Made by a program: the position numbers and the translations under genes. The notes below the pieces were generated by a model that saw nothing but the letters and a program-made list of their open reading frames with translations, searched no databases and was not told where the DNA came from. Below are positions 4,964 to 34,397 of a stretch of 64,000 nt of DNA, in pieces; the first letter of the stretch is position 1; each line of letters opens with the position of its first letter. The stretch comes from Phycisphaerae bacterium (GTDB lineage: Bacteria > Planctomycetota > Phycisphaerae > UBA1845 > Fen-1342), in the NCBI GenBank assembly GCA_022072445.1, contig JAJVHV010000031.1, forward strand, positions 62,001-126,000. Direction: 5' to 3'.

Positions 4964-5098
4964 GGTGGGTTCTCCGAGGATTCGGACGCACTTCTTCGGC
5001 CACCAACGCCCGAGCGAACGTGGCCGTCCACCCAATGATGCGTCCGTCGCCCGGCGACCTCTCAGCGGGGGGCGCATATTTTGTGAAGAAATGCGAAG

Positions 5099-33757: not shown

Positions 33758-33902
33758 CTCCGGAACTGGACCCTTCTATCGGCCCCGGCTTCGATTCTCC
33801 AGTGTAGCGAACGAGCGTGACGTGGAGAAGCCGCCGAGCCGGCCGGCGGGTACGATAAATAGTCGCCGCTACGCCGGGCCCGGCGTGGTCCGGTGCGGCA
33901 CT

Positions 33903-33976
33903 GGGCCAGTAGCCCAACTGGCAGAGGCACAGGTTTTAAAAACCTGGCAGTGCGGGTTCGAGTCCCGTCTGGCCCA
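33903..33976 (+). tRNA. Atypical tRNA with UAA anticodon (Leu-type), short variable arm
   Basis: A 74-base cloverleaf: acceptor GGGCCAG/CTGGCCC with discriminator A; D-arm with TGG; anticodon stem CAGGT/ACCTG and loop TTTAAAA, so the anticodon reads UAA (codon UUA, Leu); a variable region of only five bases (GCAGT); T-arm GCGGG-TTCGAGT-CCCGT. The D-arm (TGGCAGAGGC) resembles tRNA-Leu, including a 13-22 mismatch, but bacterial tRNA-Leu normally has a long variable arm. CCA is not encoded. It may be a divergent tRNA-Leu or a mobile-element-type tRNA. Confidence 0.75.
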
Positions 33977-34397
33977 TCAAACGTAGATTTGCGAGATACC
34001 CTATGTGCGGTGCGGGGCGCCCGTCGCCGGCCGCGGCGCGGTTCGGCCGGCGGCGCGAGCTGCGCGGGCGGGCTTGCGTCCCGGGCGGGACAGGATGGAA
34101 TCGGCGGCGCGGAGCGCTTGGGGCGGTTGGGGGGATTATCCGGCAGCCGGCCGGGGTGGGACGTCAGATGACGCACGCACTGCGCGATACCGCGCACGCG
34201 GCTCAGACGGCGCAGGTCGGCAAATTCGCGGGCAAGCGACGCCTGAGCGGGCGGTGCGGGTCGGCGGCGGAAAATCCGCGGCGGTGGAGGGGGCGGCGGA
34301 ACGCAGATTGCAGGCCAATATTCGGTAGCCGGATCGCGCGCCGCCGGGCGCGACGCCGGCCGACGAACAGCTCGCAGCCGCACGCGAAGGGACGCCG
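33977..34397. other. Intergenic region upstream of the por operon
   Basis: 420 bases, GC-rich, with no supported gene in either strand. It should contain the promoter for the operon that starts at 34398, but no clear sigma site was recognised. Confidence 0.55.

Follow-up and report, generated by a model that had tools for sequence, protein, structure and literature searches.

Structure of the tRNA gene

A complete tRNA gene was located on the forward strand at positions 33903-33976 of the window (the whole 64,000-nucleotide stretch of DNA analysed). ARAGORN called tRNA-Leu(taa) at 33902-33978, and Rfam RF00005 gave a full-length match to the same strand at 33903-33976, with 58.4 bits and a window-wide E of 4.7e-10. 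The sequence-only reading of this DNA had placed a tRNA with a UAA anticodon here and had proposed a covariance-model or ARAGORN search as a check; both searches upheld its coordinates and its anticodon.

The features of the tRNA, all on the forward strand, were read from the sequence and the Rfam alignment. The 5' strand of the acceptor stem, GGGCCAG (33903-33909), forms 7 pairs with CTGGCCC (33969-33975), and T8 and A9 lie between the acceptor and D stems. The D arm (33912-33928) is of the leucine type, with a stem of 3 bp (GCC/GGC) and a loop of 11 nt, CAACTGGCAGA, which includes A14, A15, G18 G19 and A20a. Its register is that of the D arms of the long tRNA-Leu genes of the same genome (GGCGGAATTGGCAGACGC, sequence and ARAGORN); the sequence-only reading had rightly noticed a leucine-like D arm. 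The anticodon arm CAGGT-TTTAAAA-ACCTG (33930-33946) carries the anticodon TAA (UAA) at 33937-33939, for codon UUA. It is followed by the 5-nt variable region GCAGT (33947-33951), with U48 for pairing with A15, by the T arm GCGGG-TTCGAGT-CCCGT (33952-33968), and by the discriminator base A73 (33976), the main bacterial leucine determinant. CCA was not encoded.

The long variable arm is a textbook fixed mark of bacterial tRNA-Leu. Its replacement by five bases had been described correctly from the letters alone: GCAGT is shorter than the variable arm of class II tRNAs (10 bases or more), and the variable region is therefore of the short, class I type. The acceptor and T stems have the 7/5 layout, and not the 8/4 or 9/3 pairs that define allo-tRNAs. 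Several other features were those of bacterial tRNA-Leu: the leucine anticodon UAA, A73 at 33976, and A15-U48, G18G19 and A20a in a D arm with a 3-bp stem. Minimum free energy folding of the unmodified RNA did not give a clean cloverleaf; this is common among tRNAs and was not counted against the gene.

On one side, the tRNA gene was flanked by genes for a PSCyt1/PSCyt2/PSD1 protein and a DUF1501 protein, and on the other by a pyruvate:ferredoxin-oxidoreductase-type cluster (Pfam). PSCyt1 and the other domains point to Planctomycetota as the probable source. None of the seven neighbouring proteins scanned was recognised by Pfam as an integrase or a phage protein, and neither a consensus promoter nor a terminator was evident near the tRNA.

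Leucine tRNAs and leucyl-tRNA synthetase of the host genome

The genome to which the window belongs (5.25 Mb; assembly 96.7% complete, 50 contigs) gave 49 RF00005 matches, which were then read with ARAGORN. Four long-arm tRNA-Leu genes were present (CAA, CAG, GAG and UAG), and the only tRNAs with a UAA anticodon were two diverged short-arm genes, one in the window and the other on contig 22. A normal tRNA-Leu(UAA) elsewhere in the genome, which the sequence-only reading had suggested looking for, was found in this assembly neither by RF00005 and ARAGORN nor by a pattern search, and UAA occurs only in the short form. It is possible that a long gene was missed in the assembly, but its absence from all 27 genomes of the family (see below) argues against this.

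The second short tRNA-Leu(UAA) gene (contig 22, 78367-78441, minus strand; 5001-5075 of locus L072) lies near a tRNA-Val(CAC) and is 93% identical to the window copy. Its anticodon loop is ATTAAGA, with G37, versus TTTAAAA in the window copy, and its D loop is one base longer. A candidate origin for the short gene was an anticodon change in another tRNA of the same genome, the nearest of which is Thr(UGU), 80% identical to the window tRNA; short leucine tRNAs from unrelated bacteria are closer (up to 85% identical).

One strong locus for a bacterial LeuRS (TIGR00396) was found in the genome; the weaker matches scored low and are presumably fragments or class I synthetases of other kinds. Two low-scoring CAU tRNAs (L074, 50-122; L078, 51-121) with a Gln-like D arm, T37 and the loop CTCATTC were noted in addition to three further tRNAs with that anticodon.

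Conservation of the short form and exclusion of the long form

A DNA search of 27 same-family genomes detected full-length or nearly full-length homologues of the short tRNA-Leu(UAA) in 24, including its own. Most genomes of the family have homologues with identities of 81-93%; the window tRNA is therefore not a chance match. ARAGORN called tRNA-Leu(taa) with the same architecture in every one of the 23 same-family loci fetched besides its own (L032-L054). A pattern for the long-arm tRNA-Leu(UAA) matched none of the 27 same-family genomes but 31 of the 34 other genomes of the order (Fisher p = 2.6e-14).

Short and long tRNA-Leu(UAA) largely exclude each other across 392 genomes of the phylum. 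The short form was present in 37 genomes, seven of which also had the long one, while the long form was present in 290 of the 355 genomes lacking the short (p = 1.7e-14). These counts were taken by hand from listings, genomes within one family are not independent, and the patterns, being exact, will miss some genes of either kind. Judging from this distribution, the short tRNA-Leu(UAA) appears to have replaced the long-arm version throughout the family of this bacterium.

Amino acid at UUA codons

UUA makes up only 0.67 per 1000 codons, so that few sites could be tested. Of 43 UUA sites of the family aligned at moderate local identity, 25 had leucine as the majority residue in relatives, as did 17 of 23 sites under a stricter alignment cut; no other residue was in the majority at more than 2 of the 43. 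Only seven of the sites came from the window's own genome (5 leucine), and a first, smaller run of aligned codons had given leucine at 8 of 10 UUA sites. With the looser cut, the leucine share of aligned pairs was similar for TTA and the reference leucine codons (52% for TTA, 61% for TTG and 63% for CTG); with the stricter one it was 52% for TTA, a value partly lowered by one R/S site, versus about 70% for TTG and CTG. From these alignments, UUA still appears to mean leucine in the family. Reassignment of the codon was rejected, since aligned UUA codons were mostly leucine and there was no competing residue.

Short-arm leucine tRNAs in other bacteria and in phages

Public genomes and viral contigs were scanned with a pattern combining the D arm and a short spacing, in which the anticodon was left free. 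At least 297 distinct tRNAs were read: 112 from genome contigs, 122 viral and 63 from relatives (phylum loci). Among the matches listed, 296 of the 297 distinct short-arm tRNAs had leucine anticodons (UAA, CAA, UAG, CAG, GAG and AAG); U48 was present in 293 and A73 in 295 of them, neither base being part of the pattern. The pattern itself required A15, which thus carries no independent weight.

The named carriers among the matches listed were mostly Actinomycetota (Nocardia, Gordonia, Mycobacterium, Microbacterium and others); Planctomycetota, Cyanobacteria and a small number of other groups also occurred. A loosened pattern for the long tRNA-Leu(UAA) matched none of the 15 genomes reached from the scan loci, a count made with a pattern that had no positive control in Actinomycetota. 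Tandem short-arm leucine genes (UAG, UAA and GAG) were found at L055 (1285-1564, minus strand) and L057 (1495-1866, plus strand), the latter also with CAA; both genomes belong to another family of the same order and also contain a long tRNA-Leu(UAA). A short tRNA-Leu(GAG) with C33 for T33 (loop TCGAGAG) was seen in L202 and in several Planctomycetota matches. The sole non-leucine anticodon among the matches listed (ACA) was that of a viral contig, L265, and its anticodon stem was poorly paired.

Phage records annotate tRNAs of the same kind as tRNA-Leu, in one case as tRNA-Leu(taa). No description of a short-arm bacterial tRNA-Leu was found in the literature searched, the scope of which excluded most subscription journals; as far as could be checked, the short form has been annotated in phage records but not described.

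These observations suggest that there is probably a second structural form of bacterial tRNA-Leu, of class I shape, which is widespread, spans six leucine anticodons, travels with phages and in tRNA arrays, and has supplanted the chromosomal long-arm tRNA-Leu(UAA) on more than one occasion, both classes being charged by one LeuRS per cell.

Predicted charging and function of the window tRNA

Leucylation in E. coli needs A73, A15-U48, G18G19 and A20a, while neither the sequence of the variable arm nor its folding correlates with leucylation, and armless variants remain active (PMC9976931). The ordinary LeuRS would charge the window tRNA through A73 and the D-arm and core features A14, A15-U48, G18G19 and A20a, which it shares with long-arm tRNA-Leu, the long arm being dispensable. 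Because the window tRNA keeps the E. coli determinants, such charging would require no new mechanism. The gene is presumably expressed; its product would insert leucine at the rare UUA codons and probably also help at UUG by wobble. In several other families besides this one, the short form would have superseded the long-arm tRNA-Leu(UAA). We consider it very probable that the window gene, which together with its second copy represents the only UAA-anticodon leucine type of this genome, encodes a functional leucine tRNA with a class I shape, charged by the ordinary LeuRS, and that it replaces the long-arm form.

The sequence-only reading had left two options, acceptance by LeuRS or charging with something else that would affect the decoding of UUA. 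The first of these is supported, charging by LeuRS being predicted from the determinants kept. As to the second, a tRNA carrying another amino acid, with UUA reassigned in the family, would be consistent with the class I body (the nearest other tRNA of the genome being the 80% identical Thr(UGU)) and with the lack of a competing long tRNA-Leu(UAA). Counter-evidence is provided by the UUA alignments, in which leucine predominates and another residue has the majority at no more than 2 of 43 sites; by the anticodons of the class, almost all of them leucine, with arrays of short tRNAs that combine UAG, UAA, CAA and GAG; and by the conserved leucine D arm, U48 and A73. We regard it as highly improbable.

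A pseudogene, or a tRNA-like element outside translation, is likewise extremely unlikely. The missing consensus promoter and terminator and the poor energy folding would fit either of these, but every stem is intact, conservation extends across the family, the only other UAA tRNA found in the genome is the second short copy, and UUA is in use; conservation and intact stems led us to reject this explanation. Viral contigs and phage records commonly contain short leucine tRNAs similar to this one, and arrays of them stand beside a long tRNA-Leu(UAA) in some genomes of the phylum, as would be expected if the window tRNA were an accessory derived from a phage or tRNA array, a normal tRNA-Leu(UAA) elsewhere doing the main work. 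The window gene, however, is solitary among ordinary metabolic genes and is conserved across a family in which 0 of 27 genomes had the long form, and an accessory role is very unlikely.

Comparison with known tRNAs

A working short-arm leucine tRNA, the interpretation favoured here, would be a natural, chromosomal and apparently indispensable molecule, and thus a direct test of the features that LeuRS needs. It bears on how leucine tRNAs are discriminated from others without the arm, and on how an essential isoacceptor gets swapped for a differently shaped one. It is also a warning that annotation based on the anticodon conceals switches of class. A 2023 review allowed short-arm tRNA-Leu in animal mitochondria only (PMC9976931). 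The animal mitochondrial tRNA-Leu(UUR) likewise lacks a long variable arm, reads UUR, and is charged with leucine without the arm (PMC9976931), but the short form described here occurs in bacterial chromosomes and phages, is GC-rich and fully paired, and is used alongside a bacterial LeuRS and isoacceptors that do have the long arm.

With the bacterial class II tRNA-Leu(UAA), the window tRNA shares the UAA anticodon, the 3-bp D stem, the leucine-type loop, A15-U48, G18G19, A20a and A73; it differs in the five-base variable region and in the remaining body, which is like that of Thr(UGU) and other class I tRNAs. Allo-tRNAs (8/4 or 9/3) that read leucine codons also depart from the bacterial norm, and leucine anticodons occur in some of them (PMC7609411), but their acceptor and T stems have altered lengths and they were shown to insert serine, whereas the window tRNA has the normal 7/5 layout and leucine features. 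Rhodococcus phage Trina and Mycobacterium phage Kykar have tRNA-Leu(taa) genes (74-75 nt) with the same D arm and a short variable region, annotated as tRNA-Leu. Those genes are phage-borne, whereas the window gene is chromosomal and apparently represents the sole UAA isoacceptor type of its genome.
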